From Dehalobacterium formicoaceticum (GTDB taxonomy: Bacteria > Bacillota > Dehalobacteriia > Dehalobacteriales > Dehalobacteriaceae), in NCBI RefSeq assembly GCF_002224645.1, contig NZ_CP022121.1:1184501-1248500 (forward strand): a DNA stretch of 64,000 bases, read 5' to 3'. The notes beneath the pieces were generated by a model, which did not search any database, was not told the DNA's origin, and saw nothing but the letters and a program-made list of their open reading frames with translations. Of this stretch, positions 17,818 through 47,787 are shown one piece after another (the stretch's first letter is position 1; the number at the start of each line of letters is the position of its first letter). The translations under genes were made by a program, and so were the position numbers.

Positions 17818-18120
17818 AAAGTATAATGTATTTTTTGGGGAGCATACTAACCAGGTAAAAAAAATTTTTTCAATTAAAGGAATTTAAGATTCAATGGCGA
17901 ATGTTCTATATGGTGGAATTTGAAGGAAAATGCTTGTTTTGTCTTGATCCCAACTTCTGCAAATGTGAATGAACGAATCATTGAAAGCTTTAGATCGTTG
18001 TAAATTTTCTACATATCTCATGGAACAGTGGCAGAAGAGCGGGACTTGAGCAAAAACCAGTGTCTTACAAAGCATCCATAAACAAGAACTAGAATGAAGG
18101 TAATGAAAGGGGCGGAATAT
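17818..18120. other. Intergenic region before fhs
   Basis: About 300 bases separate argG from fhs. I see a TATAAT at 17822-17827 without a well-spaced -35, a short A/T palindrome GGTAAAAAAAATTTTTTC near 17858, and no open frame with a binding site. A tetrahydrofolate riboswitch, known before folate genes in some Firmicutes, was looked for and not recognised. Confidence 0.4.
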
Positions 18121-19878
18121 ATGCTTGATCCAGTAGAATTTAAAGATTGGCAGATTGCTGAAGAAGCAGAAAAATCAATGCTTTCTCCGGAACAATGGAG
18201 AGATAAATTGGGTCTCACCAATGAGGAGCTTATTCCTTATGGCAAAACACCTAAATTAGACTTTATCAAAATTATGGATAGATTAAAAGATCGTCCTAAT
18301 GGCAAATTTATTGAAGTAACAGCAATTACACCCACTCCCTTGGGAGAAGGAAAATCCACCACTTCTTTAGGCTTAATCGAAGGTTTAGGCAAAAGGGGGA
18401 TGAATGTAGGCGGTTGTCTGCGTCAGCCTTCCGGCGGACCTACCATGAATGTAAAGGGAACTGCTGCAGGCGGCGGGAACGCTTTGTTGATTCCGATGAC
18501 TGAATTCTCCTTAGGGTTAACCGGTGATATCAATGATATCCAAAATGCTCATAACCTCTGTATGGTTGCTTTAAATGCCAGAATGCAGCATGAAGCTAAT
18601 TATTCTGATGAAGAATTGGCAAAACGCAACTTAAAGAGATTGGACATTGATCCCAAAAGAGTTGAAATGGGTTGGGTCATGGACTTTGCTGCTCAGGGAC
18701 TCCGTAATATTATTATGGGTCTTGGCGGCAAAAGAGATGGTTTCATGATGTCCTCCAAATTTGCCATTACCGTTAGTTCTGAATTAATGGCTATTTTAGC
18801 TGTTGCTACCGACTTAAAAGACCTGCGGGAAAGAATCTCCAATATGATCGTCGCCTATGATAAATATGGCAATTATGTTACTGCCGGTGATTTGGAAGTA
18901 GACGGCGCCATGGCAGCATTCATGAGAAACACCATTAATCCTACTCTTTGCTATACAGTTGAACACCAACCGGTATTGGTTCATGCCGGTCCTTTTGCTA
19001 ACATTGCCATCGGACAATCCTCCATCATTGGAGACCGTGTTGGACTTAAGATGTTTGACTATCATGTAACAGAGAGCGGTTTTGCTGCTGATATCGGATT
19101 TGAAAAGTTCTGGAACGTAAAGACTCGCTTAAGCGGCCTGGAGGCTAATGTTTCCGTATTAGTTGCCACAATCCGTGCTTTGAAGATGCATGGGGGCGGC
19201 CCGGCAGTTGTTCCCGGACGGCCGATTCCCGAAGAATATACCAAACAGAACATGGCATTAGTGGAAAAAGGCTGTGAAAACCTGCTCCATCACATGAAGA
19301 ATATCAAGAAATCCGGCATTAATCCGGTGGTTTGCATCAACAGCTTTGCCACTGATACCAAAGAAGAAATTGCTCTGGTTAAGAAAATCGTTGAAGAAGC
19401 CGGCGGACGCTGCGCATTGTCTGAACACTGGAAATATGGCGGAGACGGTGCGCTGGAATTAGCTGATGCAGTTATGGATGCTTGTAAAGAACCTGTGGAC
19501 TTCAAATATCTCTATCCCTTGGATATGCCTTTGCGTCAACGGGTTGATATCATTGCCAGAGAAGTATACGGTGCTGATGGTGTGGATTGGACTCCTGATG
19601 CTGAAGCAAAAGCAAAAGCCTTTGAAGCAGATCCTAAGTTCAATGATTTCCAAACCATGATGGTAAAATCCCATCTCAGCTTAAGCCACGATCCCACATT
19701 GAAAGGTGTGCCCAAGAATTGGAGATTGCCGATTCGTGACGTACTGGTATACGGCGGTGCTAAATTTATTTGTCCTATGGCCGGTGGAATTTCCATGATG
19801 CCGGGTACCGGTTCAGATCCCGGATTCCGAAGAATTGATGTAGATGTGAATACCGGTAAAGTGAGCGGCTTATTCTAA
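18121..19878 (+). CDS. fhs: Formate-tetrahydrofolate ligase
   Basis: Fhs makes 10-formyl-THF from formate, THF and ATP, the second step of the methyl branch of the Wood-Ljungdahl pathway in acetogens; it can run in reverse when methyl groups are oxidised. The 585 residues include the P-loop [16 protein letters not shown] (71 on) and [20 protein letters not shown], and end with [23 protein letters not shown] at 18121 follows AAAGGGGCGG; an in-frame ATG at 18094 lacks a site. Here it would connect methyl groups from the amine cluster downstream to formate metabolism. Confidence 0.97.
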
Positions 19879-20000: not shown

Positions 20001-20806
20001 ATGACACGCTTAGTAGAAAATGATATCGCCGGTTTAGAACGTGAACTTGATGTTTATGAAGAAGAACTTCTCAAAAAACAGGTTTGAATTTATCGGAAGT
20101 TGCTTGTGCCGGAGGGAATATTACCATTCATGATCTTCGGAAGGCAGCACAAAGCTATCGCGTTGCAGTGGTTCCGATTACATCGGGAGAAGGCGTGATT
20201 GGAGGTTTTACTCAATTTGTCGCAAGCATTATCAGAAAAATGGGTTTTCAGGCAACGGTGACAGAGGAAACAGACGTTGCCGGGTTTTATGAAGGGGTAT
20301 GCCAAGAAAACGAGATCATCTTTATGGCGGATGACAAGAAATTTATTGCTTTGAATCTGCGCACGAAAAAAGTGATTGACAATGGATATGGAACAGGCAG
20401 AGGTTTTGGGGCTGCTCTCGCCGGCATGGCTGATGGCTTGGCAGGACGAGAGGTTCTGGTCATTGGTTTTGGACCGGTAGGATCCAGTGCCGCAGAATAT
20501 CTTTTGGAATCTGGAGCTAAGGTTGCTGTCTATGATCAAAATGAATTGAGGATGAAAGAAACTAAGAAGGATATGAAACAGGAACCCAACTTGAAACAGG
20601 CATTGAAAATATATGATTTTCTGATTGATGCCACTCCGGAGGGCGAATTTATCTCACCGGAGGATTTGACCGATCAAGCAATGATTGCTGCACCGGGTAT
20701 TCCTCTGGGTCTTAATGCACAGGCCTTTGAGAAATATCGGGACAGAGTTATCCACGATCCCCTGCAAATCGGAGTTGCCACCATGCTTGCTTTAGCGGTG
20801 GGATAA
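20001..20806 (+). CDS. pylD: Pyrrolysine biosynthesis protein PylD, frame break near 20074-20083
   Basis: PylD is the NAD-dependent oxidase that closes the pyrroline ring in the last step of pyrrolysine synthesis. Family signatures are VAVVPITSGEGVIGGFTQF, IIFMADDKKFIALNL, the Rossmann motif VLVIGFGPVGSSAAEYL, IAAPGIPLGLN, and HDPLQIGVATML near the end. ATG at 20001 follows AGAAGGAG and encodes MTRLVENDIAGLEREL before a stop; the frame resumes with KTGLNLSEVACAG if one A is added to the A6 run at 20074-20079. The full product would be about 268 residues. PylS, PylB, PylC and tRNA-Pyl are not in the window. Identification is from remembered family motifs, not a search. Confidence 0.82.
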
Positions 20807-23977: not shown

Positions 23978-24083
23978 TGAAAAGATCAATTATAAAGGAA
24001 ATTTGAGTTTGATGTAGAACTTATCTAAGTTAGGGAGAACTTTATTGTTGATTGTTAAAATTTTTTAAAATGGGGTGGCTGGA

Positions 24084-25880
24084 ATGGAAGAAAAATTCAA
24101 AATCTTATTTTTGCCGGATGATAAAGAATTCGAGGTGACCGCAGGTATAAGTGTTTTACAGGCTGCCGGAATGGCAGGCGTGGAATTAGATGGTCCTTGC
24201 GGTGGTAATGGGACCTGTGGAAAATGCCGGGTACGTGTTATGAAAGAACAGGGCGGTGCTCAGTGGGCCTTGGCCTGCAAGACGATCATTGATCGGGATA
24301 TGACCGTAGAGATCCCACAGTTAGAGGTGTCTGTACATCGGAAAAATGAGCTGACTTTGGCAGACCTCAATGTCCAAATTGATTCCGGCATTAGTGCCAA
24401 GGTCGTTACCGTAAGTAAACCTTCTCTGGAAAATCAGCATCCGGATGCTAAACGTTTTTTAATTGCTATGGATAATGATACCTTGGAGCTTGGCACAGAA
24501 GTCCTGCGTGCTTTACCAAAAACAGTGCGGGATAAAGAAGCAAAAGGTATGGTGACAGCCATTCTTTGTGGAAATAAGGTTTTGGCTGTGGAGGCAGGAG
24601 ACACATCCCAAAGGCTTTACGGGATCGCAGTAGATATTGGGACCACCTCTGTGGTGGTGGCATTGATGGATCTAAGATCAGGAGAAACGGTGGCCATCGC
24701 TTCTGCCGGCAATCCCCAAACTACTTTTGGGGCGGATGTCATTGCCCGTATTGAGCATGTGATGAATAACGAGGATGGATTGGAAGTATTAAATCGGCGG
24801 GTGATTAAGACCATTAACCGCCTCACTGAGAAATTAGCCCAAGATATTGGGATCACACCCATGGAGATATATCAAATGACCATGGTGGGGAATACTACCA
24901 TGAGCCATCTCTTTATGAAGATTGATCCTACTTATTTGGCGGTATCGCCTTTTATTCCCGTTGTTTCCGAAAGAGTTTGGTTCGAAGCCAGGGAATTAAA
25001 CATTGAGATCGCCCCCCAAGCACCGGTTTATGTTACCCCCAGTGTTGCCGGGTATGTAGGAGGAGACACCATTGGTGTGATTATGTCCACTGACATTTAT
25101 CAGAAAAAAGGGATCTATTTGGCTATCGATATCGGAACCAACGGAGAACTGGTACTGTCCCGGGATGGGGAAATGGCTTCATGCTCCACGGCGGCAGGGC
25201 CGGCCTTTGAAGGAGCCCAAATTAAATTCGGGATGCGAGCTGCCGATGGGGCGATTGAAAAGGTCACCATTTTGGAGAACGGCGAAGTGGAGATTGGCGT
25301 GATTGGCAATCAGCCTCCCAAGGGAATTTGCGGATCCGGTCTGATGGACGTTGTCTCTGAAATGGCCCGGGCGGGCGTGATTGACTCCACGGGTCGTTTA
25401 TGCACCGCAGAAAATCCCGGAGATCTTCCCCCTGCATTGCAGAAACGGTTAGGCTCTAATGAAGAATACGGCCCCTACTTCATTCTCTCTTTTGCTGAAG
25501 ATAATATGGGAGAAGAAGTGGTCCTTACTCAGAAAGACGTTCGGGAGCTTCAGCTGGCGAAGGCTGCATTGGCCGCGGGAATTCAGGTGTTGTTACAGCA
25601 CTTTAACCTGAGTGCCCAGGATCTGGACGAGGTTTTACTGGCCGGTGCCTTCGGCAGTTATATTAATAAATACAGCGCTTTAGGAATCGGGCTTCTGCCT
25701 GCGATTGATGCGAACAAAATCAATTCTGTAGGGAATGCAGCGGGAACCGGAGCCCGTATGGAATTAATTTCTCAGGAAATACGACAGGAAGCAGAAAAAG
25801 TGGCGCGCCGGGTGGAGCATTTGGAATTATCCACCAGGGCTGACTTCCAGGAATATTTTATCAATTGCTTATCGTTTTAA
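24084..25880 (+). CDS. Corrinoid protein reductive activator (RamA/RACo-like, 2Fe-2S plus ASKHA)
   Basis: Proteins of this family use ATP to re-reduce inactive Co(II) corrinoid proteins to Co(I), which keeps methyltransferase systems running. The N-terminal ferredoxin domain has the plant-type 2Fe-2S pattern CGGNGTCGKC (Cys39, 45, 48) plus Cys65. The rest is an ASKHA-type domain with two phosphate loops, VDIGTTSVVVALMDL (about 180) and LAIDIGTNGELVLS (about 345), and GICGSGLMDVVSEMARAG. The length of 598 residues fits. ATG at 24084 follows GGGGTGG. It lies upstream of the mtt cluster and is the probable activator of the MttC protein encoded there. Confidence 0.85.
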   Translation: MEEKFKILFLPDDKEFEVTAGISVLQAAGMAGVELDGPCGGNGTCGKCRVRVMKEQGGAQWALACKTIIDRDMTVEIPQLEVSVHRKNELTLADLNVQIDSGISAKVVTVSKPSLENQHPDAKRFLIAMDNDTLELGTEVLRALPKTVRDKEAKGMVTAILCGNKVLAVEAGDTSQRLYGIAVDIGTTSVVVALMDLRSGETVAIASAGNPQTTFGADVIARIEHVMNNEDGLEVLNRRVIKTINRLTEKLAQDIGITPMEIYQMTMVGNTTMSHLFMKIDPTYLAVSPFIPVVSERVWFEARELNIEIAPQAPVYVTPSVAGYVGGDTIGVIMSTDIYQKKGIYLAIDIGTNGELVLSRDGEMASCSTAAGPAFEGAQIKFGMRAADGAIEKVTILENGEVEIGVIGNQPPKGICGSGLMDVVSEMARAGVIDSTGRLCTAENPGDLPPALQKRLGSNEEYGPYFILSFAEDNMGEEVVLTQKDVRELQLAKAALAAGIQVLLQHFNLSAQDLDEVLLAGAFGSYINKYSALGIGLLPAIDANKINSVGNAAGTGARMELISQEIRQEAEKVARRVEHLELSTRADFQEYFINCLSF

Positions 25881-28548: not shown

Positions 28549-28640
28549 GGATATGAAGCTACCGGAGAAGCATTTGTTGCAGATGGATATGACAGTAAAA
28601 CTTCTTGATGGGCTGTTTTGTAAAGAACGGGGGTGGCTTA

Positions 28641-30389
28641 GTGGTAAAGAAGCATTCTTTGATTAAAGACTTGTTTGCAGCATTCATTTCTGAAATTAAC
28701 CAGGGATTAGCTGTTATAAATGTAGAGTCAGGCTTATTGGAAGTATGCAATCATCGATTTGCAGAAATAATACGGATAGACCATTCCCTCTTAAGGGGAG
28801 AAAAAATTGGTGAAATAATTCCGGGATTCGATGTGTACAAAAATGAAACAGATAAGGTTTTAAGAGTTGCCGGGCAGCATCAGGTTCGTTTTAAATTCGT
28901 GGACATAGGAAATGAACAGCTTGGTTCCTTTATTCTGGTGTTTGTTTCGGAAGTGCTGCCTCAGGAGCAGGAAGACATGACCTTTATGAATGAGGCTTTT
29001 CGCACCGTTTTAGATCACATTGACGAAGGCGTTCTGATTGCTGATGATCAGAATCGCATCACTTACTGCAATCAAGTACAGCTGAATTTTGACGGTTTAA
29101 AATTGAAAGATATTTTGGGTAAGTATTCCTGGGACGTTTATGACTTTAATGCGGAAATCAGTATGATGCGTAAATGTGTAGAAACAGAAAAGCCGATTGA
29201 TACCTATGTCCAGTATTATATTTCCAATAGCGGTCAATATGTTCGTGTCACAGGGAATAACCTCCCCGTGCGTCATAATGAAAAAACCGTGGGTTCAGTG
29301 GCAATTTACAGAAACTTGCGTAAAAGTGAGGATATGGCCTGCAAAATCATTGAATTGCAGAAAAAAATCAGTGAAGATCAGCCGGATCTGGAAGGTGCAT
29401 TGATCAGCGGCGGGGCCTCGAAAAAGAAATATTTTTCCTTTGACGATATCCTGGGTGTCAGTCATGGAATATCCCGCAGTATTGAGGTGGCCAGATTAGC
29501 CGCCCAGTCGGATTCTCCTGTATTTATTTACGGAGAAACGGGTACGGGGAAGGAAATGTTTGCCCAAAGCATTCACAGCGAAAGCGATAGAAGCAATAAG
29601 CCCCTTGTTTCCATTAACTGTGCGGCCATCCCGGAAAATTTACTGGAGGGTATTATTTTTGGCACGTTGAAGGGTGTATTTACCGGGGCCGCAGACAGAA
29701 AGGGCCTTTTTGAGGAAGCGGATGGGGGTACCATCTTTTTAGATGAAATAAACTCTATGCCCATTGCCTTGCAGAGTAAATTATTAAGGGTTTTGGAAGA
29801 AAGAAAAGTGAGACGATTGGGAGGGAAGGAAGAGATCCCAGTCGATGTGCGTATCATCAGCTGCAGCAATGTGCCGCCCCAACAAGCAATCACAGAGAAC
29901 CAAATCCGTAATGACTTATATTATCGTCTGGCCGTGATCAATATTGAAATTCCACCCTTGCGGGAGCGCAGGGAAGATATCCAGGTGCTGACACAATTTT
30001 TTGTGGGAAAATTTAATTTAAAATTTAAGAAGCACGTTTGCCAAATCAGCCCGGAAATATTTGAGCTCGTAAAGTCATATGACTGGCCGGGGAATGTGCG
30101 GCAGCTGAAACACTGGGTAGAATCGGCCATGAATATGATTCCGGCAGATGAACCAATTTTCAGCGAGCAATATGCTCCCCAGGGACTGCATGTATTTTAT
30201 GGAAAGGTTAGGAATACAGAAAAAAGTGACAAAAAGGGAGAGGTATTTACTCAGATCCATGAAAATGAACGGCTAAAAATCGAAGAGGCATTGAAGCGTA
30301 ACAGCGGAAACATTTCAAAGACAGCCCAGGAATTGGGTATCAGTCGTCAGGTTCTTTATTATCGTATGCGCAAATTTGAAATCAGATGA
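28641..30389 (+). CDS. PAS-containing sigma-54-dependent transcriptional activator
   Basis: This enhancer-binding protein is expected to drive RNA polymerase with sigma-54. The N-terminal half (about 1-240) has two PAS-like sensor segments (LFAAFISEINQGLAVINVES, and VLDHIDEGVLIADDQNRIT). The central AAA+ domain has Walker A GETGTGKE (298-305), the sigma-54 contact loop as GVFTGA (345-350, usually GAFTGA), and Walker B GGTIFLDEI. A Fis-type helix-turn-helix ends the protein (SGNISKTAQELGISRQVLYY). GTG at 28641 follows GGGGTGG. The sigma-54 promoter before mttB, 250 bases downstream, is the obvious target. Confidence 0.88.
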   Translation: MVKKHSLIKDLFAAFISEINQGLAVINVESGLLEVCNHRFAEIIRIDHSLLRGEKIGEIIPGFDVYKNETDKVLRVAGQHQVRFKFVDIGNEQLGSFILVFVSEVLPQEQEDMTFMNEAFRTVLDHIDEGVLIADDQNRITYCNQVQLNFDGLKLKDILGKYSWDVYDFNAEISMMRKCVETEKPIDTYVQYYISNSGQYVRVTGNNLPVRHNEKTVGSVAIYRNLRKSEDMACKIIELQKKISEDQPDLEGALISGGASKKKYFSFDDILGVSHGISRSIEVARLAAQSDSPVFIYGETGTGKEMFAQSIHSESDRSNKPLVSINCAAIPENLLEGIIFGTLKGVFTGAADRKGLFEEADGGTIFLDEINSMPIALQSKLLRVLEERKVRRLGGKEEIPVDVRIISCSNVPPQQAITENQIRNDLYYRLAVINIEIPPLRERREDIQVLTQFFVGKFNLKFKKHVCQISPEIFELVKSYDWPGNVRQLKHWVESAMNMIPADEPIFSEQYAPQGLHVFYGKVRNTEKSDKKGEVFTQIHENERLKIEEALKRNSGNISKTAQELGISRQVLYYRMRKFEIR

Positions 30390-30778: not shown

Positions 30779-32257
30779 ATGTCAAGGAATACTCATGCAA
30801 GTTATACCAGAACGAATGGCTTTGGCGTGGATGTTTTTTCCCCGGATGAGCTCTATGCAATTCACTGCGCAACCTTAGATGTTTTAGAGCATGTAGGCGT
30901 ACGGGTCGACAGTAAGAACGCCCAGGGAGTTTTTGCCTCGGGGGGAGCCAGGGTAGATCAGAAAACAGATATCGTAAAAATCCCGCCCTATCTTGTGGAG
31001 GAGGCAGTGCAATCCGCCCCATGCACTCTTCTCTTGGCGGCCAGGGACCCCAGAAAGGATTATATTCTGGAAAGCAATCGGGTGGGTTTTGTTAATTTCG
31101 GTGAAGGGGTTAATGTGATTGATCCGGTGACGAGGCAGTATCGTCCCAGCACCAAGCAGGATGTAGCCAATGCGGCAAAAATGAGTGACTATCTTTCCGA
31201 GATGGATATTAGTTATCGGGCGGTAGTAGCTCAGGATTATCCGGGACCGGCCCAGGCATTGCATAATGCGGAAGCAATTTTCCCTAACACCGCGAAACAC
31301 TTTTTCATTGGCGCCGACGGGGTGCGCAATGCCCGGAAATTGATTGAGATGGCATCAGCGGTAGTTGGCAGCCGCGAAGCTTTGAGAGAAAGGCCAATTA
31401 TCAGTTTTAACGTCTGTCCTACCAGTTTATTAAAGCTGATCCCGGAATGTACGGATGTGGTAATTGAAGCAGCTCAAGCCGGGATTCCCGTTAATATCAT
31501 TTCCATGGCCATGGCCGGAGCTACCTCACCGGTAACCCTGGCAGGATCCTTAGTGACACACAATGCTGAGGTATTAAGTACCATCGTGCTCAGTCAACTG
31601 ACTCGAAAAGGAGCACCTTGCATTTATGCCAGCTCTACGACGATTATGGATATGAGGCATACAACGGCACCGGTTGGGGCACCTGAGCTGGGCATGATCA
31701 GTGCTTCCGTGGCTAAAATGGCTCAATACTATAATCTACCCAGTTTTGTAGCCGGTGGGTAGGCAGACAGCAAAATACCCGATGCCCAGGCTGCTCACGA
31801 AAAAACCCTCACAGGTCTCCTTGCTGCCCAGGGTGGCGCGAATCTGATCTATGGGGCAGGCATGCTGGACATGGGCATGACTTTTGATTTTGCCCAGTTT
31901 GTTATGGATAATGAGATCTTTAAAATGATCCGAAAGGTAATCGGCGGTATTGATGTAACTGATCGGAACATGGCTGTGGAGATCATCAAGGAGATTGGTC
32001 CCGGCGGCGAGTTTGTAAGCCATCAGCATACCTTTGATAACTTCAAAGCAGAACAATCCCATAGTAAATTGTTTGACCGCTCCATGCGGGAAACCTGGGT
32101 TCTTGGAGGATCAACTGATTTAACAGAACGAGCTTACGAAGAAGCAAACTTGATTTTAGAGCAACATCGACCCTCGCCTCTAGCGAAAGGTGTCATTGAA
32201 ACGATTCGGAAGATTGTCGAAGAAGCGGAAAAAGAGTACGCAGCGGAACAGGAATAA
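30779..32257 (+). CDS. mttB: Trimethylamine methyltransferase MttB with in-frame amber (pyrrolysine) codon
   Basis: MttB moves a methyl group from trimethylamine to the corrinoid protein MttC. The frame from ATG 30779 (site GAGGTG) has one internal TAG at 31760-31762, codon 328, and continues unbroken to 32257 for 492 residues. The context is SFVAGG[TAG]ADSKIPDAQ; the non-Pyl paralogue at 36260 has NGGQTDSKIVDAQ, so the TAG sits exactly where pyrrolysine occurs in MttB. The part after TAG has good family matches (GAGMLDMGMTFDFAQFVMDN, EIGPGGEFVSHQHT). Conventional annotation would split this into two pieces. It heads the sigma-54 operon with mttC. Confidence 0.93.
31760..31762 (+). other. In-frame TAG codon predicted to encode pyrrolysine
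   Basis: This amber codon is at the conserved MttB active-site position and is followed by 164 in-frame sense codons of clear family sequence. Pyrrolysine's imine is thought to hold and orient the methylamine for transfer to Co(I). Confidence 0.9.
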
Positions 32258-32302: not shown

Positions 32303-32953
32303 ATGTCAAATACAGAGATTTTAGAAAAACTGAGTGAAGGTGTACGAGAAGGAGATGTTGAGCAGGTTCAGGAATGGACTCAGAAAGCCATCGATGCGGA
32401 GATAGCACCTCTTGATGTGATCAATGACGGATTAACTAAAGGAATTCAGGAAGTCGGAGCCTTGTTCTCTGCCGGAACTTATTATTTACCGGATTTATTA
32501 TTGGGAGCCAAAGCCATGGAAAGCGGTATTAAAATCTTAGAACCCTTAATGGCTGACGGCAATCGAAAGTTCTTAGGGAAAGTTTTAATGGGAACCGTTC
32601 AAGGTGACCTCCATGAAATTGGCAAGAATATTGTCATTATGATGCTGAAGACAGAAGGATTTGAAGTATTTGATCTGGGTATTGATGTTCCTGCAGAAAA
32701 ATTTATTGCAGAGGCAAAAACGATTCAACCGGATATTATTGGCATTTCAGCCTTGCTCACAACGACAGTAGGCCGACAGAAAGAAATTATTGAACTGCTC
32801 CAGGAAGAAGGTATGCGCAAGAATATTAAGGTCATGATCGGAGGTGCTCCTATTAACCAGAATTGGGCAGACAGTATCGGTGCCGAAGGCTATGCGGAGG
32901 ATGCCACAGAGGCTGTGCGGGTTGCAAAAAACCTAGTGGGAAAAGTGAACTAA
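32303..32953 (+). CDS. mttC: Methyltransferase corrinoid protein MttC
   Basis: MttC carries the corrinoid that takes the methyl group from MttB-type enzymes. The 216-residue protein has an N-terminal helical cap (about 1-90) and a Rossmann-like B12 domain with GDLHEIGKNIV, giving the D-x-H-x-x-G motif (Asp102, His104, Gly107), His104 being the lower cobalt ligand. VMIGGAPINQNWADSIGAEG is the nucleotide-tail region. ATG follows AAGGAGG. It lies between mttB and a second MttB-family gene and could serve all three methyltransferases here. Confidence 0.94.
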   Translation: MSNTEILEKLSEGVREGDVEQVQEWTQKAIDAEIAPLDVINDGLTKGIQEVGALFSAGTYYLPDLLLGAKAMESGIKILEPLMADGNRKFLGKVLMGTVQGDLHEIGKNIVIMMLKTEGFEVFDLGIDVPAEKFIAEAKTIQPDIIGISALLTTTVGRQKEIIELLQEEGMRKNIKVMIGGAPINQNWADSIGAEGYAEDATEAVRVAKNLVGKVN

Positions 32954-32997: not shown

Positions 32998-34419
32998 ATG
33001 AGATTCGATTACTATACTGAAGAGCAGCTTCAGCAAGTGCATGAAGCAAGTCTTGATCTGTTAAAAAAGGTAGGGATTAGTACCAGTTCGGAAAGATTTC
33101 GCACCCTTCTTTTAGACCATGGTTGTGTGGAAAAGGGAAACAGAATTCTTTTTACTCAGGATGTAATTGATAAAGGGATGAAAACAGTACCCCCTGTTTT
33201 CAATCTCCACGGACGCAACAACGGACCGGTATTAGAAATTGGAAAGAAAAAAGGATATTGCCAGACTTTGGTAGGAGCTCCCTCTGTGATTGACCTGGAA
33301 AGCGGCGTACGGCGGGACTGCATGGTGCAAGACCTGGCAGATATTACTCGTTTGGCGGATGCTTTGGAAAATGTGGATATCATTTCACCCCTTTTTCCCC
33401 GGGACGTACCCCAGGAAATCATTTTAACCATGGAGACCGCGGTTTGTTTGCGCAATACATCAAAACCTTTGAGCATTTGTGTGGAATCTTCACGAGAACT
33501 CCAATTTATTAAAGAGCTGTTAATCGCGGTGGCAGGAAGCGAAGAAGCTTTAAGAGAAAAACCCCTGGCTACCTTACCGGTATCACCGGTAAGTCCTTTG
33601 GAATACGGATTTGATCCGGCGGAAGCGCTGCTGGATGTGGTAGCAGCGGGCCTGCCTTTGGGGGTGGAACCATGCCCCCAGATGGGTGCCACCGGCCCCA
33701 TGAGTATGAACGGCCTAGTGGCTATGCATAATGCGGAAATTTTGGCCGGTGTCATTGCCGCCCAATTGTATCAACCGGGCTGTCCCCTAACCATGTCCTC
33801 TCGTGCCACCTTTATGGATATGAGATCAGGTCTCGGCCTTTGGGCCATGCCGGAGATGGGGATGATGTCGGCAGGTCTGAATCAATTGGGACGCTATTAT
33901 CAAATTCCCGTCGCACCCGGGGGTTATTGCGGGAGTTCCAAGGTAGCCGATATGCAAAGCGCATATGAACATTTATACAATGCTTTGATGGAAGGGCTGG
34001 CCGGCAGTGATATTATCGGGTCCGCCGGCTCTCTGGACAATGCTTTGATATCCTGTTATGTCATGCTGGTCGTGGATGATGAATTATCTTCCGTGGTAAA
34101 AAGAACCATAAAAGAAATTGAGGTAAATGCAGACAACCTGGCTGTGGATGTAGTAGCGGAAGTCATTGAAAATCAGGATAATTTCCTGGGCCACAAGCAT
34201 ACGCGCAAATATTTACGTTCCGGGGAATTATGGAAACCGGGTATCAGTCAGAGGCAAACCTTTGAAAAATGGGCACAGCAAGGACAAAAATTAGAGGATG
34301 TCGCGAAGGAAAAAGCTGCTTATTTGCTGGCAACCCATCAGTCTGCTCCTTTAAGCAGTGAGATTGAAAATGAATTTGATAAGATACTTGCCAGTGCAAA
34401 AAAAGCCTTAATGGAGTAA
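32998..34419 (+). CDS. MttB-superfamily methyltransferase, divergent non-pyrrolysine type
   Basis: This 473-residue protein belongs to the MttB superfamily (YTEEQLQQVHEASLDLLKKVG, GATGPMSMNGLVAMHNAEIL, FMDMRSGLGLWAMPEMGMM) but is clearly distant from the other two copies. Where pyrrolysine sits in MttB it reads APGGYCGSSKVADMQ, with Tyr/Cys near residue 309, so it does not use the Pyl chemistry. Relatives without Pyl demethylate glycine betaine, proline betaine or carnitine; the substrate here is unknown. ATG follows AAGGGAGGATGG, 44 bases after mttC, likely in the same operon. Confidence 0.82.
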   Translation: MRFDYYTEEQLQQVHEASLDLLKKVGISTSSERFRTLLLDHGCVEKGNRILFTQDVIDKGMKTVPPVFNLHGRNNGPVLEIGKKKGYCQTLVGAPSVIDLESGVRRDCMVQDLADITRLADALENVDIISPLFPRDVPQEIILTMETAVCLRNTSKPLSICVESSRELQFIKELLIAVAGSEEALREKPLATLPVSPVSPLEYGFDPAEALLDVVAAGLPLGVEPCPQMGATGPMSMNGLVAMHNAEILAGVIAAQLYQPGCPLTMSSRATFMDMRSGLGLWAMPEMGMMSAGLNQLGRYYQIPVAPGGYCGSSKVADMQSAYEHLYNALMEGLAGSDIIGSAGSLDNALISCYVMLVVDDELSSVVKRTIKEIEVNADNLAVDVVAEVIENQDNFLGHKHTRKYLRSGELWKPGISQRQTFEKWAQQGQKLEDVAKEKAAYLLATHQSAPLSSEIENEFDKILASAKKALME

Positions 34420-34554: not shown

Positions 34555-36153
34555 ATGAACGACTCCAAAAAAGCAGTTGAAAAATTGGAAATTGATAAGA
34601 TCTTGTATTTTTTTCCGATTGTGATTATTTTATCTGCTTGCGTTTATCTGGGTTTCAATCTGGAAAAGGCCAACAATATCATCAATGTGATCTTTGCTTA
34701 TATCACGGGGAATTTCAGCTGGTTTTATCAGTTCTTTACTTTTGGCTGTTTAGCCGTATGTATTTACTTAATTTTTGGTAAATATGGCAGTATGAGATTT
34801 GGTGATGAAAAACCGGAGTTTTCTACTTTTAGCTGGCTGTCCATGATCTTTACTGCAGCCTTAGGCGGTTCCTTAGTTCTGTGGGCGACCATTGAGCCCT
34901 TTTATTATGTCATGGGTCCTCCCTTCGGTGTAGAGGCATATTCCTATGAAGCCTATCAATGGGCTACCACATATCCTTTATTTCATTGGGGATTTACCGG
35001 TAATTCCATGTATTGTGCCCTGGGTGTCACTTTTGCCTATATGTTTTGGGTACGAAAAAAGGATGTGAACCGAGCCAGCACTGCCTGTGCTTTGGTCCTG
35101 GGGGATAAAGTCACCTCCGGCTGGGCCGGCAAAATTATTGATATTCTTCTGATCATTTCTATTGTCGGCGGAATTGCCACAACCTTAGGATTATCCACTC
35201 CTCTGGCCAGTGAACTGATCGTTGCTCTTTTTGGCATCCCTCGCACCTTGACGATGGATATCGCATTAATCATCTTCTGGGTTATTCTCATTTCCATCAC
35301 TGTATACAGCGGTTTGAACAAAGGGATTCGCATCGTCAGCAATGTCCGGATGTGGCTGATTTTTGGCATTCTGGGTTATATCTTTCTGGTGGGTCCGAAG
35401 GTTTTTATGCTCAATAACTTTTGTGAAGGCTTGGGCAATATGATGAATGATTTCTTTAAAATGAGTTTTTATACGGAACCTTTTGGCAATCCGGATTTTA
35501 ACGGTTTTCCTCAGTGGTGGACAATTTTTTACTGGGCCTGGTGGGCCAGTTATGCTTCTCAAATGGGTATTTATTTTGCCCGTATTTCCAAAGGACGCAC
35601 TGTAAGAAGCTTCTGTCTGGCCATTTTAACAGCTACCGGTTTGGGCGTATGGATTTTCTTTGCTGTTTTCGGCAACTATACCCTCCACGCATTTATTAAC
35701 GAAAAGCTGCCTCAACTGCCTGATATATTAAATAATGCGGGGAATGCTGCTGCCGTCGTGCATGTTTGGGAATCCTTGCCTTTACCTACCTTAGTTTTGT
35801 CTGCCATACTTTTGCTGACCATTTTAGCAACCATTACTTTATTAAACGGTTCCGCGTATACCTTGGCTATGTTAAGCACAAAGAAACTGACAGGAGAACA
35901 AGAACCGGCCGGGTGGAACCGAATCTCTTGGGTGCTCGTTCTTGGTACCTTAGCATTAATTCTCATGGCCATCGGTGGTTTGAAAGCTGTGCAAACCTCC
36001 AGTGTGTTGGTATCCTTCCCCATGCTTTTTATCTTTATTATCATTATCGCTGGTTTCTTCAAAGTTACCAGGGATGATAATTGGGGCAATCTCAATGGGA
36101 AAACGACGCAAAACATTGTTGCCAAAACAGATTCAGAATCAACCAATATTTGA
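34555..36153 (+). CDS. BCCT family betaine/carnitine/choline-type transporter
   Basis: BCCT carriers import quaternary ammonium compounds with sodium or protons, or exchange them. The 532-residue protein has about 12 membrane spans and the family landmarks PEFSTFSWLSMIFTAALGG, IEPFYYV, YPLFHWGFT and WWTIFYWAWWASYASQMGIY, followed by FARISKGRT. The Trp-rich segment forms the substrate's aromatic box. ATG follows AAGGAGG. Its position after three methyltransferase genes supports uptake of a methylated amine as growth substrate rather than only osmoprotection. Confidence 0.92.
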   Translation: MNDSKKAVEKLEIDKILYFFPIVIILSACVYLGFNLEKANNIINVIFAYITGNFSWFYQFFTFGCLAVCIYLIFGKYGSMRFGDEKPEFSTFSWLSMIFTAALGGSLVLWATIEPFYYVMGPPFGVEAYSYEAYQWATTYPLFHWGFTGNSMYCALGVTFAYMFWVRKKDVNRASTACALVLGDKVTSGWAGKIIDILLIISIVGGIATTLGLSTPLASELIVALFGIPRTLTMDIALIIFWVILISITVYSGLNKGIRIVSNVRMWLIFGILGYIFLVGPKVFMLNNFCEGLGNMMNDFFKMSFYTEPFGNPDFNGFPQWWTIFYWAWWASYASQMGIYFARISKGRTVRSFCLAILTATGLGVWIFFAVFGNYTLHAFINEKLPQLPDILNNAGNAAAVVHVWESLPLPTLVLSAILLLTILATITLLNGSAYTLAMLSTKKLTGEQEPAGWNRISWVLVLGTLALILMAIGGLKAVQTSSVLVSFPMLFIFIIIIAGFFKVTRDDNWGNLNGKTTQNIVAKTDSESTNI

Positions 36154-36259: not shown

Positions 36260-37735
36260 ATGTGCGCCAGAACATTACGAGCGGGAATTCCCATGATGTC
36301 CGGCTTTAGTTTAAATACCTTTACCGAAGAACAATTGGATCTGATTCATTTTGCTACTTTGGAAATTTTACAGGATGTTGGGGTTAAGGTGGAGTCGTCA
36401 GAGGCCAGCCAAATTTTTGCCGATGGCGGCTGCAGGGTGGAAAAACATGGGGAATATGATATTGTAAAAATCCCCGGTTATGTGGTGGAAGATTGTCTGC
36501 GCTGGGCACCCAGTAATATTGTTTTTTACGGCCGGAACAAAAAGGATGATTTTCCGGCAGACGGCAAGAGAACGGGTGCCAGCCCCTTTGGCGAAAATGT
36601 CCAGGTCATTGACAGAAAAAACCGCAACGTGCGTAAATCCGTCAAACAGGACTTGGCAGAAGCAACCTTGTTATGCGATTACTACCAGCAGGTGCCCATG
36701 GTGGAGAGGGCATTATGTTCCGGTGATCAAATCCCAGCAGCCCAGGCCTTGCATAATTTCCAGGCGATGGTCGCTAATACTTCCAAGCATATCCTGCTTT
36801 CTTTCGGCATGGCAGAAAGTGCTCAGAAAATCATTGAGATGGCTTATGGGGTTGCGGGGAGCAAAAAGGCTTTCGAAGAACGACCTTTTGTGACCGCTTT
36901 TGTCTGTCCCACCAGCCCGTTGGTCTTAGTCAAACAATGTTGTGAAGGCACCATCACCGCGGCCAGGGGCGGTGCAGGTGTGGCCATTATCCCTATGGCC
37001 TTAAGCGGAGCAACAGCACCTGCCACCTTGGCCGGTACCCTGATACAGCATAATGCTGAGGTGTTAAGCAACCTGGTTCTTGCTCAGTTAACAAGAAAAG
37101 GTACGCCGACCATGTACTGTACCTGCAGCACGATTATGGATTTGCGCTTTACCCTTGCCGCTGTCGGGGCTCCGGAATGGGGCATTCTCAGTGCTGCCTT
37201 GGCCAGTGTTGCTCAATATTACAAACTCCCTTTCTGGGGGAACGGAGGGCAAACCGATAGCAAAATTGTGGATGCCCAAGCCGGTTATGAATCATCTCTG
37301 ACCATGCTTTTAACCACCTTATCCGGGGCTAATATTACCTATGGGGCGGGCTGTCTGGAATCAGGACTGACTTTTGATTTTGCTAAATTTGTCTTAGATA
37401 TGGAAAATTTCACACGGGTACAAAAGGCTGTAGCCGGCATTGAGCTTAACGATGAGCAGATGGCCCTGGATGTGATTAAAGAGGTGGGCCCGGGGGGAGA
37501 ATTTATGACCCATCCCCACACCTTTAAGCATATGAAGGAAATGTCCATGTCTAAAATCTTTGATCGGCGTAATCGTTCTTTGTGGGGAGAGTTTACAGGA
37601 GGTAAAGATGTTACTGAGGGCGCTTACAAGGAAGCAGAAAGAATCTTAGCAGAGCATCGGCCGGTGCCTGTATCCTCATCGGCAATGGACACCATGGGTG
37701 AAATCATACGGGAATTTGAAGGTCAAATCAAGTGA
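36260..37735 (+). CDS. MttB-superfamily methyltransferase, non-pyrrolysine (MtgB-like)
   Basis: The 491-residue product aligns closely with the Pyl-MttB at 30.8 kb along its whole length (TEEQLDLIHFATLEILQDVG, AATLAG-type core, GPGGEFMTHPHTFKHM) but has Gln331 (NGGQTDSKIVDAQAG) in place of pyrrolysine. Such enzymes include glycine betaine:corrinoid methyltransferase MtgB. The neighbouring BCCT genes fit a betaine-type substrate, but proline betaine or carnitine cannot be excluded. ATG at 36260 follows GGAG by 8 bases. No frame-breaking feature is seen. Confidence 0.87.
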   Translation: MCARTLRAGIPMMSGFSLNTFTEEQLDLIHFATLEILQDVGVKVESSEASQIFADGGCRVEKHGEYDIVKIPGYVVEDCLRWAPSNIVFYGRNKKDDFPADGKRTGASPFGENVQVIDRKNRNVRKSVKQDLAEATLLCDYYQQVPMVERALCSGDQIPAAQALHNFQAMVANTSKHILLSFGMAESAQKIIEMAYGVAGSKKAFEERPFVTAFVCPTSPLVLVKQCCEGTITAARGGAGVAIIPMALSGATAPATLAGTLIQHNAEVLSNLVLAQLTRKGTPTMYCTCSTIMDLRFTLAAVGAPEWGILSAALASVAQYYKLPFWGNGGQTDSKIVDAQAGYESSLTMLLTTLSGANITYGAGCLESGLTFDFAKFVLDMENFTRVQKAVAGIELNDEQMALDVIKEVGPGGEFMTHPHTFKHMKEMSMSKIFDRRNRSLWGEFTGGKDVTEGAYKEAERILAEHRPVPVSSSAMDTMGEIIREFEGQIK

Positions 37736-37890: not shown

Positions 37891-39461
37891 TTGGATCAAG
37901 GAGAACATAAACCAGTCTATGCCAAGGTCAACTACCATGTTTTTGGCATTGCCGCAATCGCGTGTTTCTTGTTTTTCATACCGTTAATCTTAATGCAGAA
38001 TGCTGCTCAAGGTGTGATCAATCAGATCATGTATGTTATTACCCATACCACGGACTGGTTTTTCCAGGTTGTCGTTTTTGGTTGTCTGGTGTTTTTAGCT
38101 TGGCTGGCTTTCAGTCGCTATGGCAAGGTGAAATTAGGCGGTCCTGATGATAAACCTGAATTTTCTACTTTTACCTGGGTTGCCATGATGTTTTGCGGTG
38201 GTACCGGGGCGGGAATTGTATACTGGTCTACGGTCGAACCGATTTATTATTTGCAATCTCCTCCCTTCTGGATAGAACCTTTTTCACCGCAAGCCGCTCA
38301 GTACGCTCTTTCCTACGGTATTTTTCACTGGGGGTTCAGCGCTTGGGCCACTTTTGCTCTGCCAGCTGTTGTTTTTGCCTATATTTACTACGTACGGAAA
38401 AGACCGGTGCTCACCGTGAGCTATGCCTGCCGAGGTGTGATCGGGAATTTGGCGGACGGTTGGTTGGGAAAACTCATTGATGCCATTGTTGTCATCGGTT
38501 TGGTTGGCGGTATGGCTACCGCTTTGGGTTTTATTGTCCCTATGCTATCTACAATTTCTGCTGATTATCTGGGTATTGACGAAACACTGATTTTTAAAAT
38601 GCTGGTATTGTTAGCAATCACCGCTGTTTACAGCTGGAGTGCTTATCATGGCTTGAAAGGTGGTATTGCCAAGCTGGCAGATTTTAACATGTATTTAATG
38701 TTTGTATTACTGGCATTTGTCTTTCTGGTCGGCCCGACAAGCTTTATGCTTTCTTTGTTCGCGGACAATATTGGAGTATTGATTCATGACTTTGTGCGCA
38801 TGAGTTTTTATACAGATCCCATCACCAAATCCGGCTTTCCTCAAAGCTGGACGGTTTTCTATTGGGCATGGTGGATTGCCTGGTCCATGTATATCGGCCT
38901 TTTTGGAGCCAGAATCTCCAAAGGACGTACCATTCGGGCGGTGATTTTTAATATGCTTTTTTCCACAACCGCCGCATGTATGCTCTTTTATCTGATTTTT
39001 GGCGGCTATCAGGTAGATGCCATCTTAAATCAAGGGCTGCCTGTTTCAGACATTTTGACGAATCAGGGGGGGCCGGCAGTTGTATCTTGGTTTTTAAATG
39101 CTTTGCCTTTAAAAGCGGCAGTCATTCCCTTTTTTGTTTTGTGATGGTGATTGCCACTGCAACGGGAACCGATGCCGCGTCCTTTACCTTAGCCAATATG
39201 ACCTGTGTTGAAGTTAAAGACGGGGTGGAACCTCCCCGTTGGACTCGTTTATTTTGGGCCGGTATGATCTGCCTGGCTTCTGCCGCAATCTTACTTGTCG
39301 GCGGCATGGATGTGATACAGCTTTCTTCGGTGTTAACCGCGGTACCCATCTTGCCGGTGATGGTAATTCTGGCGATTTCATTAGTGAAATGGCTGCGGGA
39401 GGATTTTGGTGATATACAGCCGCTGACCTTGGATAAGTATTCTGAAGATCATAATAAATAA
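37891..39461 (+). CDS. Second BCCT transporter, frame break in a T run near 39130-39135
   Basis: This carrier of about 523 residues is a paralogue of the one at 34.6 kb (PEFSTFTWVAMMFCGGTGAG, YGIFHWGFSAWATFALPA, SWTVFYWAWWIAWSMYIGLF, ARISKGRT). After AVIPFF the frame runs into TGA; one extra T in the T6 run at 39130-39135 restores CFVMVIATATGTDAASFTLA, a normal BCCT continuation, to the stop at 39461. So either the gene is freshly broken or the sequence lacks a base. TTG start at 37891 follows AGGAGGGG. Substrate probably betaine-like, by context with the MtgB-like gene before it. Confidence 0.85.
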
Positions 39462-43432: not shown

Positions 43433-43461
43433 TATTCAAGGGATAGAAAGGCGGGTTGATA

Positions 43462-46400
43462 TTGAAAAAAATTATTGCGTGGATATTATTAGTGACATTT
43501 TTATTCGGCAGTATGCCGGTACCATCCCTGGCGGCCACTCCATTCAAGGGCTTGGATATCGAAGAGATCTTTAAGGAAGATGACACAACCACCGCAGAGC
43601 CAAAATCGATTGTGAATCACCAATATGTGGGCCTGGGCGATGAAGAAGAGGACGATACCCTTGATTTATCCCTGCCCGAAGGCACTGTCCGTATAAATGC
43701 ACTAAGCGTGTTGGTAAAAAGTATCTTAGAAGAAAATAACAGCTGGGATCGTTTACGAGATTATCCTTTTGAAGGAACGGGTTTTTTACTCCCTTCCAAA
43801 ACTGGGCTTCCTTCTCCGGAAAAGCCGGTTTCGGAGCCGCTGCCGATTGAAGAAGACGTAGAAGAAGTAAGTGAAGAGCCAGTCTCTGAGCCTGTTAACG
43901 ATGTGCATGAAGATATTATCCCTGACCCGGATGACGATATGGTTGACGATATAAATGAAGAAACCGTCTCTGACCCGGTTGAATCAGACAGCAGTGAAAG
44001 TACCGAAAAAGCTGTGCCGGCTGAAGAAAGCAGAGCGACCCCCGACACATCAGACACAGCGCTTAATGATGAAGATATTGTAACGGAAGAATCCAATCCG
44101 GAGTCAGCAGACTATAAGGGAGAGGAAACGGAGCATAACCAAGCAGCTGAAACCGCACCCGAAGGGGCCCCGGCAGGGGATGAGTCTGCCGGTGATGATT
44201 CCTCCGACCCTGATATGGATAAACCAAATGAGGAAATACTTGAAGGTAAACCGGATATCTCCCTTGACCCTGCATTATACCCGGAATCAGAGGCAATCAT
44301 GCAGCAAGTAAGCGAAGAACAGAGCTGGTTCAACAGCCTGGTGGGTCCTTCCATTGCTAATAATGTCCGTAACAATAAATACACAGTTTGGGATGATACC
44401 AGTGAAATTGTATCACCCCAAACAGGTGAATTAACCCTGCGCTTCGATGATATCCATTTACCGGGGAGAAACGGTCTGGACTTAAGGATTAGCAGAATTT
44501 ATCAAAGCAGCCAGGCGCGAACGGGGAAATAGGATATCTCCCCGTTCGAAGATCAGCAAAACAGTTTTTCTTCATATTTTCAGGAGCGTTATAATTTAGG
44601 CACCGGCTGGTCCTTCACCTTTCCCTCTGTTCAGGTAGAACAAGACAGCGATCAAGATATTGAAAGCCGAGAGTTATATTATCATAGCGGTAACGGTGAG
44701 GTATACCTGGTTAAAATGACTTCACAAACCGGGGATAGCAATCTGGAGAATTATTATCGCAAAGATTGTGAATTCAGGGAAGATACCACCTATGTGTATA
44801 TGGACGGTACGGAAGGAGACGGTTTGGAAAGTATCCGCTCCCAGTATGTTTTTGAGACGGCGGATAAAACAAAGCAATATTTTGCGGCGGATGGCCGTCT
44901 GATGGCGATTATTGACCGATTTGGCAACAAAATTGAGTTTAAGCATAAATTGTTTCCCGTAACCAACCGGGTTGTGAATTACGATTTTGACGACAGCAGC
45001 CAGATGGATAGCGGTGTACCCTGGACCTTTAATGAAGGGTACCTTAATATAGCAACTGATAATGGATACCAGGATAATACCTCCTTGCGGTTTGAGCACA
45101 CTTCTTCAAGAACCACCCAATCTGCTTTTTCCAAGCCGATTAAAGTGACACCCAACCGCAAGCATCGTATCAGCGGTTATTTGGCGGATGCCTTGGATGC
45201 GGGAGCCGCCTCTGTGCGCATTCATCAATATTCAAAATGGCGCGGCATCCATTATAATGCATATTTGGGCGGCTGGGTGTCCGGATATTTCCTGGATAAG
45301 TCGCCGAACAGTTCACTTGAAATTGCCGAGTCCCGTAACGGCGATAGAAATTGGCGCGGTTTTGAGGAATATTTCACCGTCGACGATGATACCGATTATA
45401 TCCAGATTGAATTCTTAGCCAAGAGTGCTAAGGGAGATGCCTGGCTGGATAAGGTTTGTGTGGATCAAGTGTACCCTTTGATCACAGAAATCACGGACAG
45501 TATCGGCAGGAAGGTTAATTTTCAATACACGGATAATTTTTATGAAGAAGATGGCGAGGATGATAATAAAAATCCCATCACTGTAACCATAAAGGATCCA
45601 AGTCTGAGTCAAACAAAAACACTTACTTATCAGCGGGAGGTCATTAATACCCAATCTTATGATTATTTATTTCAAGGGGTCCTTTTAAGTTATAAAAACG
45701 GTGAATTGGATATGGATGATTACCAAGTCTATCCGGGGGATGACTATTCCGGTCAAAGAAGATATCCCAGTCTGGTAAGCTACCATGACGGGGAGGATTT
45801 ATACGAATATAAATACAAACTGAGAACGAACGAATTCTCTTTTGTCAATAAGGAATCTTCAGGAGGCTATGCAACGATTGGTGAGGTGCTAATAAGAAGC
45901 GTCTTGTTGCGCAACAGCAGGATCAATTACAATTTTAATGAAACAGGCATTAAGCATTTGGGGAAAAGAGGTTTTTATGAGCAATACTATCTGACCTCCC
46001 GGGAAGAACAATACTTAGTTAATAACGACTGGGACAGCGGAGGACATAATAAAAGAACCTACAGCTACGGAGGTACCTATCAGGGAAATCCCTATTACAA
46101 TGAAACCGGCTACTCGGAGACCTTTTACAGTAATCCTGATTTGCCTAAAAATACAGGGTTTCAATGGACCTGTACCGTAGAGCAGGAGGACGGATTAAAA
46201 ACTGATTACGTCTTCAAGGGAAGCAGCGTCATGGGCCTCCGTGAAGATCAAAGGGTCACCTACCATTCCGGGGGTGAAAAGGAAACCCTGTACTATGAAG
46301 AGTATGACGGGACCTACCATAACCAGCCCCTCCGCATCAAAAGTGTGCAGGAAAATAGCAGCGGCACCTATCTCCTCTATCAGGGCTATACCTATAATAC

Positions 46401-47787
46401 CTGGGGTGGCGTAGCAAAGGAAACGAAACCATTGACCCCGGCCCAATGGGAAGACAGCACCCAAAAGGAACTAAATACTGTGAGCTATACCTATCATCCC
46501 ACGTATAAGTTTCCTGCATCCACAAGCTATTATCAAAAAGAGGGTGTATTATTAACGGAAAATACCGCTTATACATCCTCCGGCGCTGTTCAGTCCACAA
46601 CCAATGCCAAGGGGGAAACCACCTATTTTGAATACACGGATGGGGCACACACCGGGAACTGCAGCAAAACCTGGAGGGCACTCCCGAACGGGCAGCAAGA
46701 GATCACGGAGTATCAGTATGATACTAATTATGCGGCCTATCCCACCCGGAATGTGCAAAAATATACGGAAGACGGGGTACCTAAAACCAGTACCACCACC
46801 CGGCAATATGATTTTCTATGGGGCCATCTGATAAGTGAAGCGGATGCCTTGGGCAATGAAACCACCTATCAATATGATACCCAGGGGCGATTGATGGCTG
46901 AATGGTCACCCTGGGATCTGGAAGATAAGAATGGCACCTATATGATTCTGCGTCATTTCGCATATGACAAAGTTCTATTGACGGATTATGGCTATAACGG
47001 TCGGGGGGCTTTTCGGGTGCAGACGTCGACCATCCATTTTCGCAGTATCATCGACCGGCCGACTATCAATCGCACCTACGATTATTATGATGATTACGGC
47101 AATCTTCTGGTGAAAGAGGAATGGGAGAATGTACAGGGTAATACCCGTGCAACCCAATTCCACTATGGCGACTACGGTCGGTTGGTTTCATCAAAAGATC
47201 CCCTCCAACGGGAAACTGTCTACAACATCGATGAATGGGGCCGTCTGAAATCCGTCACCGATGCCCAAAGGAATAAACATTTCTATGAATATGATATTGT
47301 ACAGCAAAGCAAGGACACCTATTTTCAACCGGCAGGAGGCAGCGGGGAAAACCATTATCGGGAGCGTCACGATGAAAGAGGACGGCTCATCGAGCGCAGA
47401 GCCTATCCCGTAAGCGGCGGCACTGGGGTACAGGAAAGCTACACCTATGACCTGAAGGATAATTTAATTCGCCTTACAGACGGGAAAGGAAACCAAACAG
47501 ATTTTCACTATGACGCTTTGGGTAATGTCAGCGGCATCACCAACGCCTTAGGAGAAAACACAGACTACGCTTACAACCACCTGAACCAAATCAGTGAAAT
47601 CAAGCAATATGAGAACAGCCAAAGCATCATTAACAGCAAAGCTTATGACGAAAGGGGCGCTTTACTCTCACAAACCAGGCCCATGGGTGAGACCCGGACA
47701 TATGTTAATAACGCCGCCGGATTGCCTGTTTTGATGACGGATGCCACAGGCAAATATAATGTACCCATAGAACAAGACACGATTTGA
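43462..47787 (+). CDS. Giant secreted YD-repeat (RHS-like) protein with in-frame TAG, 3' end cut by IS
   Basis: A signal peptide (KKIIAWILLVTFLFG, cut near SLA-ATP) leads to an acidic Glu/Asp/Ser/Pro-rich linker (about 120-270), a region with GLDLRISRIYQSS, then a carbohydrate-binding-like beta domain (about 510-670) and many YD repeats (GNETTYQYDTQGRL, DFHYDALGNVSGITNALG). TAG at 44530-44532 (codon 357) interrupts the frame, but the same frame then runs 1084 codons of clear family sequence. The gene ends inside the left end of an IS, so the last residues and the missing C-terminus are not native. TTG at 43462 with GAAAGGCGGG upstream is the likely start. Either a decaying gene or amber read-through. 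Confidence 0.78.
44530..44532 (+). other. In-frame TAG in the YD-repeat gene
   Basis: The flanking frame reads QARTGK[TAG]DISPFEDQQ with intact coding on both sides. In an organism that decodes TAG as pyrrolysine, partial read-through is possible; a nonsense mutation is the simpler view given decay further downstream. Confidence 0.6.

Follow-up and report, generated by a model that had tools for sequence, protein, structure and literature searches.

We find that positions 30779-32257 of the window (the whole 64,000-nucleotide stretch of the Dehalobacterium formicoaceticum chromosome analysed here) very probably encode a pyrrolysine-containing corrinoid methyltransferase of the MttB type, which from its sequence appears to be a normal Pyl-MttB. 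This is a gene of a known type, in an organism previously listed as pyrrolysine-positive: pyrrolysine biosynthesis has been marked present for D. formicoaceticum DMC (CP022121.1, 3,766,545 bp, one contig; PMC6778437).

30779-32257, forward strand: mttB-type methyltransferase gene, 492 amino acids with the TAG counted as one residue, ATG start and TAA stop
31760-31762, forward strand: TAG codon 328, in frame and aligned with the pyrrolysine of M. barkeri MttB (Pyl334)

A GAGGTG ribosome-binding site lies 5' of the ATG, from which translation runs for 327 residues to the TAG at codon 328 and then for a further 164 residues to the TAA, with no other disruption of the frame. An earlier note on this DNA had described the TAG as the sole break in the gene, with 164 residues beyond it, and our translation confirms the coordinates, codon number and residue count. 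In a profile search the read-through product gave a single match to TIGR02369, spanning residues 16-484 and scoring 722.2 bits against a cut-off of 525 bits, and phmmer aligned it with M. barkeri MttB over the full length at 406.7 bits. In this alignment the window TAG falls on Pyl334, given there as K in 7xcm and as X in 7xcl. Gly110 and Tyr364 are fully conserved among Pyl enzymes, and Met249 is an active-site residue (PMC9842639); their equivalents in the window MttB are G108, Y358 and M243, and the offset between the two proteins is six residues at both Pyl328/334 and Tyr358/364.

The gene has the following neighbours in the window:

24075-25880, forward strand: corrinoid reductive activase-like protein (AcsV/RamA type)
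28605-30389, forward strand: sigma-54-dependent regulator just upstream of mttB
32303-32953, forward strand: MttC-like corrinoid protein of cognate type (TIGR02370, 225.8 bits; cut-off 215.3)
32998-34419, forward strand: second MttB homologue, a non-Pyl superfamily member with Cys (TGC) in the pyrrolysine column
34555-36153, forward strand: BCCT (betaine/carnitine/choline) transporter
36260-37735, forward strand: third MttB homologue, with Gln (CAA, 37250-37252) in the pyrrolysine column
37891-39461, forward strand: second BCCT transporter gene, broken, one T short in the T-run at 39130-39135

The related clusters of 'Candidatus Formimonas warabiya' DCMF and of genome G003 also hold a sigma-54 regulator (about 34% identity).

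The machinery for pyrrolysine is encoded in the same genome. A search for PylS gave one strong match, at C1:3663573-3664295, with the anticodon arm of a tRNA-Pyl just upstream; ARAGORN assigns this tRNA the anticodon CTA. Downstream of the tRNA follow pylSc (365 bits), pylB (506), pylC (459) and pylSn (141), all above their cut-offs, and beyond this pylT-Sc-B-C-Sn cluster come a corrinoid protein gene and another TAG-bearing MttB; hemA, which adjoins the cluster, is intact. The components that the earlier note had proposed seeking (pylS, pylB, pylC and tRNA-Pyl with a CUA anticodon) are thus all present, including pylS and tRNA-Pyl, whose absence would have spoken against its pyrrolysine reading of codon 328; that reading is supported both by this gene set and by the alignment of the TAG with Pyl334. 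The 64-kb window itself yielded no tRNA gene. pylD is absent from the pylT-Sc-B-C-Sn cluster and lies instead inside the window, about 10 kb upstream of mttB, where it scores 243 bits against a cut-off of 150:

18094-19878, forward strand: fhs (formate-tetrahydrofolate ligase), the gene directly before pylD
20001-20806, forward strand: pylD, apparently frameshifted, with codons 1-28 at 20001-20087 and the rest at 20084-20806 in the -1 frame

The two loci are about 1.3 Mb apart around the circular chromosome (a single 3,766,545-bp contig), so that the single pylTScBCDSn-type cluster, which is usual though not obligatory, is not found in D. formicoaceticum. Split pyl clusters have a precedent in the pylB of 'Ca. 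M. alvus' (PMC3941956). The gene directly 5' of pylD is fhs in three genera (D. formicoaceticum, DCMF and G003). Because pylD is far from pylS in both D. formicoaceticum and DCMF, which have complete genomes, while pylSc and pylD lie about 100 bases apart or less in a neighbouring family (f7), the split was probably inherited within Dehalobacterium's family. We note that DCMF has a second tRNA-Pyl directly behind pylD (L076:7759-7830, C1 about 5,057,760), besides the one upstream of pylSc. G003 has pylD and a TAG MttB with no PylS match, and G001 has PylS and a TAG MttB with no PylD match; both assemblies are fragmented and the absences may be artefacts.

The state of pylD raises the alternative that survives best, namely that strain DMC no longer makes pyrrolysine, pylD being genuinely frameshifted and the TAG genes yielding truncated products or being read through by near-cognate tRNAs. 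The ATG frame of pylD reads MTRLVENDIAGLERELDVYEEELLKK and, with the shift at about codon 27, ends at a TGA at 20085-20087. One A is missing relative to G003, the window having CTC-A6-CAGG (A6 at 20073-20078) where G003 has CTC-A7-CAGG, so that the frame stops after codon 28; if this is true, pyrrolysine synthesis would be impaired and its supply cut. The description of strain DMC as an obligate dichloromethane user would fit such a loss. Against this, the frame is intact over the other 240 codons of pylD, which share 57% identity with DCMF, and translation could begin again at the TTG at 20084 that overlaps the TGA. Moreover, the assembly was built from PacBio RS II reads only, with Quiver polishing (PMC5597755), and because all three of the frameshifts in the roughly 214 kb sampled are single-base shortfalls in A/T runs, the pylD frameshift is likely to be a residual homopolymer sequencing error. 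The other two are the T-run shortfall in the BCCT gene at 39130-39135 and a frameshift at an A7 run, also one base short, in a radical-SAM-like gene near C1:1,783,070 (L026 about 1070). We therefore regard the loss of pyrrolysine from strain DMC as rather unlikely, and we give little credence to the broader proposition that pylD is truly one A short, with pyrrolysine arising by slippage on the A6 run, arising by restart at the TTG, or lost.

The pyrrolysine-containing MttB that we favour is borne out by conservation on both sides of the codon. Among the 17 MttB homologues in the genome, six have TAG in one identical alignment column, the others having Leu, Cys, Gln, Ala, Ser, Val or Gly there. 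A seventh TAG-flagged match (C1:1275392) was left out of this count, its TAG codons lying at the ends and its pyrrolysine column holding Ala. In a set of 76 sequences, all 37 TAG members carry the codon in the same MttB column; with six paralogues and 37/37 TAG members sharing one column, the agreement is far beyond chance. Two MtmB and two MtbB genes of the genome each contain one TAG inside a full-length match, which brings the TAG methyltransferase genes to ten (6 MttB, 2 MtmB, 2 MtbB), the exact column having been checked for MttB only. Orthologues of the window MttB keep one TAG at 80% identity in DCMF and G003 and at 71-72% in G041 and G040; the latter two belong to one genus, and the TAG-keeping orthologues span three other genera. 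Comparison with the DCMF orthologue gives a dN of 0.125 for the part before the TAG and 0.182 for the part after it, at a pS of 0.717 and 0.726, respectively, both saturated. With dN this low after the TAG at a pS of about 0.72, the sequence 3' of the codon is under strong purifying selection as protein. Proteomics of the sister organism DCMF has detected seven Pyl-MttB proteins (PMC9768040).

These observations bear on the possibility that mttB is a pseudogene whose TAG is a nonsense mutation and whose 164 codons beyond it are decaying. The window does hold a recent-looking nonsense TAG at another place, in an RHS gene (43456-47787), but for mttB the column shared by six paralogues and by orthologues from three other genera, a dN of about 0.18 after the TAG set against a saturated pS, the otherwise undisrupted frame and the full pyl gene set make decay very improbable. 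The RHS-repeat gene (forward strand) has its in-frame TAG at 44530-44532, inside a DUF6531 domain, and a 92% identical paralogue at C1:794592 has TGG (Trp) in its place; this TAG looks like a recent nonsense change, which tRNA-Pyl might suppress.

Members of the family without TAG can also be placed with respect to the TAG enzymes. The earlier note had pointed to Gln at the corresponding site of the paralogue at 36260, and alignment bears this out (CAA at 37250-37252, within GGQTDSK). When a maximum-likelihood tree was built from 51 rows with the pyrrolysine column left out, this Gln protein clustered with proteins of DCMF and G003 that have Val or Ile in that column (100/100), and the Gln/Val/Ile group fell inside a set made up of 19 TAG rows and 3 sense rows (98/97). 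The residue label in the pyrrolysine column requires four changes on the tree, and a single clade of TAG sequences only is rejected by the AU test (p 3e-7); pyrrolysine and sense codons have likely been exchanged more than once within the Pyl clade. Moving only the Gln/Val/Ile group outside the TAG clade is not rejected (p 0.07), and for this reason we regard loss of pyrrolysine in that group as likely and no more than that. The Gln, Val and Ile proteins keep the active-site Gly, Met and Tyr. Three MttB proteins with Leu (two) or Trp (one) in the pyrrolysine column were also seen inside the TAG clade (L081, L082 and L083).

How the UAG is decoded may be addressed from the sequence that follows it, which contains one match to a known RNA family:

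31760-31859, forward strand: match to Rfam RF02510 (PYLIS_3), 87 bits against a gathering threshold of 38, sequence-based

The PYLIS_3 model has only eight base pairs, and on 22 TAG sequences their pairing and covariation were no better than in shuffles, while RNAalifold predicted no pairs. A PYLIS stem-loop was rejected as the cause of decoding for want of covariation, and conservation of the coding sequence as protein best accounts for the match. With no support for a conserved RNA element 3' of the codon, the UAG is best taken to be read by ordinary amber decoding, with release as its competitor; TAG also serves this genome as a stop. Among 146 sampled ORFs (at least 150 aa, about 214 kb of the genome), the stop is TAA in 92, TGA in 33 and TAG in 21; seven of the TAG-ended ORFs are Pyl methyltransferases and 14 are not. 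Three of the non-Pyl TAG-ended ORFs were checked, and each stops where its domain stops. Candidate read-through in CorA/sigma-54, FecB-like/FecCD and HlyD/alanine-racemase-like pairs was dismissed, these being adjacent in-frame genes in which the TAG is a true stop. We note that TAG-ended genes with the next gene in frame occur at L028:12607-13542 (reverse strand), L024:14276-15424 (forward strand) and L026:10106-11086 (forward strand), and that read-through by tRNA-Pyl at these three stops would fuse two proteins. That an ordinary suppressor tRNA reads the UAG as Gln, Tyr or another standard residue finds an echo in the Gln in the same column of the paralogue at 36260, but is scarcely credible given a dedicated tRNA-Pyl(CUA) and PylS and a TAG column in which an enzyme of known crystal structure has its pyrrolysine.

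In enzymes of this family, pyrrolysine binds the methylamine and holds a methyl group in position to be passed to the Co(I) corrinoid of a partner protein. We suggest that in D. formicoaceticum lysine would be converted into pyrrolysine by PylB, PylC and PylD, supposing pylD to work despite its apparent frameshift, and that pyrrolysine would be inserted at UAG codon 328 from a tRNA-Pyl(CUA) charged by the split PylSc/PylSn. The pyrrolysine would then bind and activate a methylamine, trimethylamine by analogy, and the methyl group would pass to the adjacent corrinoid protein (32303-32953), which from its sequence and position is most likely the partner of the window MttB, and from there into the folate/Wood-Ljungdahl pathway of this acetogen. 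It is by analogy, too, that we infer trimethylamine to be the substrate of the window MttB. DCMF, whose orthologue is 80% identical, does not grow on TMA (PMC8163858), and D. formicoaceticum has been described as growing only on dichloromethane (PMC9768040).

The system resembles several that are already known. M. barkeri MttB (PDB 7xcl, 7xcm, 7xcn; TIGR02369) is alike in its full-length homology, in the TAG at Pyl334, in its active-site residues and in having a corrinoid protein gene next door; the window gene differs in belonging to a bacterium, in which folate and the Wood-Ljungdahl pathway, rather than coenzyme M, would be expected to receive the methyl group. The closest parallel, 'Candidatus Formimonas warabiya' DCMF (PMC6778437, PMC9768040), shares an 80% identical orthologue with the same TAG, a pylD that follows fhs a few kb away, and the same split of the pyl genes; unlike in D. 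formicoaceticum, its MttB genes are far more numerous, and its pylD has an intact frame and is followed by a second tRNA-Pyl. The Pyl trimethylamine methyltransferase of Bilophila wadsworthia (PMC7593587) is also bacterial, has an in-frame TAG at the same site, is truncated in the public annotation and lies apart from the pyl genes, as here, although its host is a gut organism of a different phylum. The non-Pyl members of the MttB family (Desulfitobacterium MtgB, PDB 2qne and 9yce; MtcB; MtyB) belong to the same superfamily and, like the Cys paralogue at 32998 and other homologues of the genome, have no pyrrolysine; in contrast to the window MttB, they have no TAG, act on quaternary amines and reach only 228 bits against it.

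The correct annotation of the window mttB and of nine other genes of the genome requires reading through TAG. The Gln, Val and Ile paralogues would offer natural cases of Pyl-type enzymes with an ordinary residue in place of pyrrolysine. A single A-run in pylD decides whether pyrrolysine arises by the standard route at all; if the run is truly short, the contraction of one homopolymer would have silenced all ten TAG methyltransferase genes at once, in a strain that uses only dichloromethane. As it stands, D. formicoaceticum is equipped with the genes of the entire trimethylamine, dimethylamine and monomethylamine route, though it has been described as a dichloromethane specialist.
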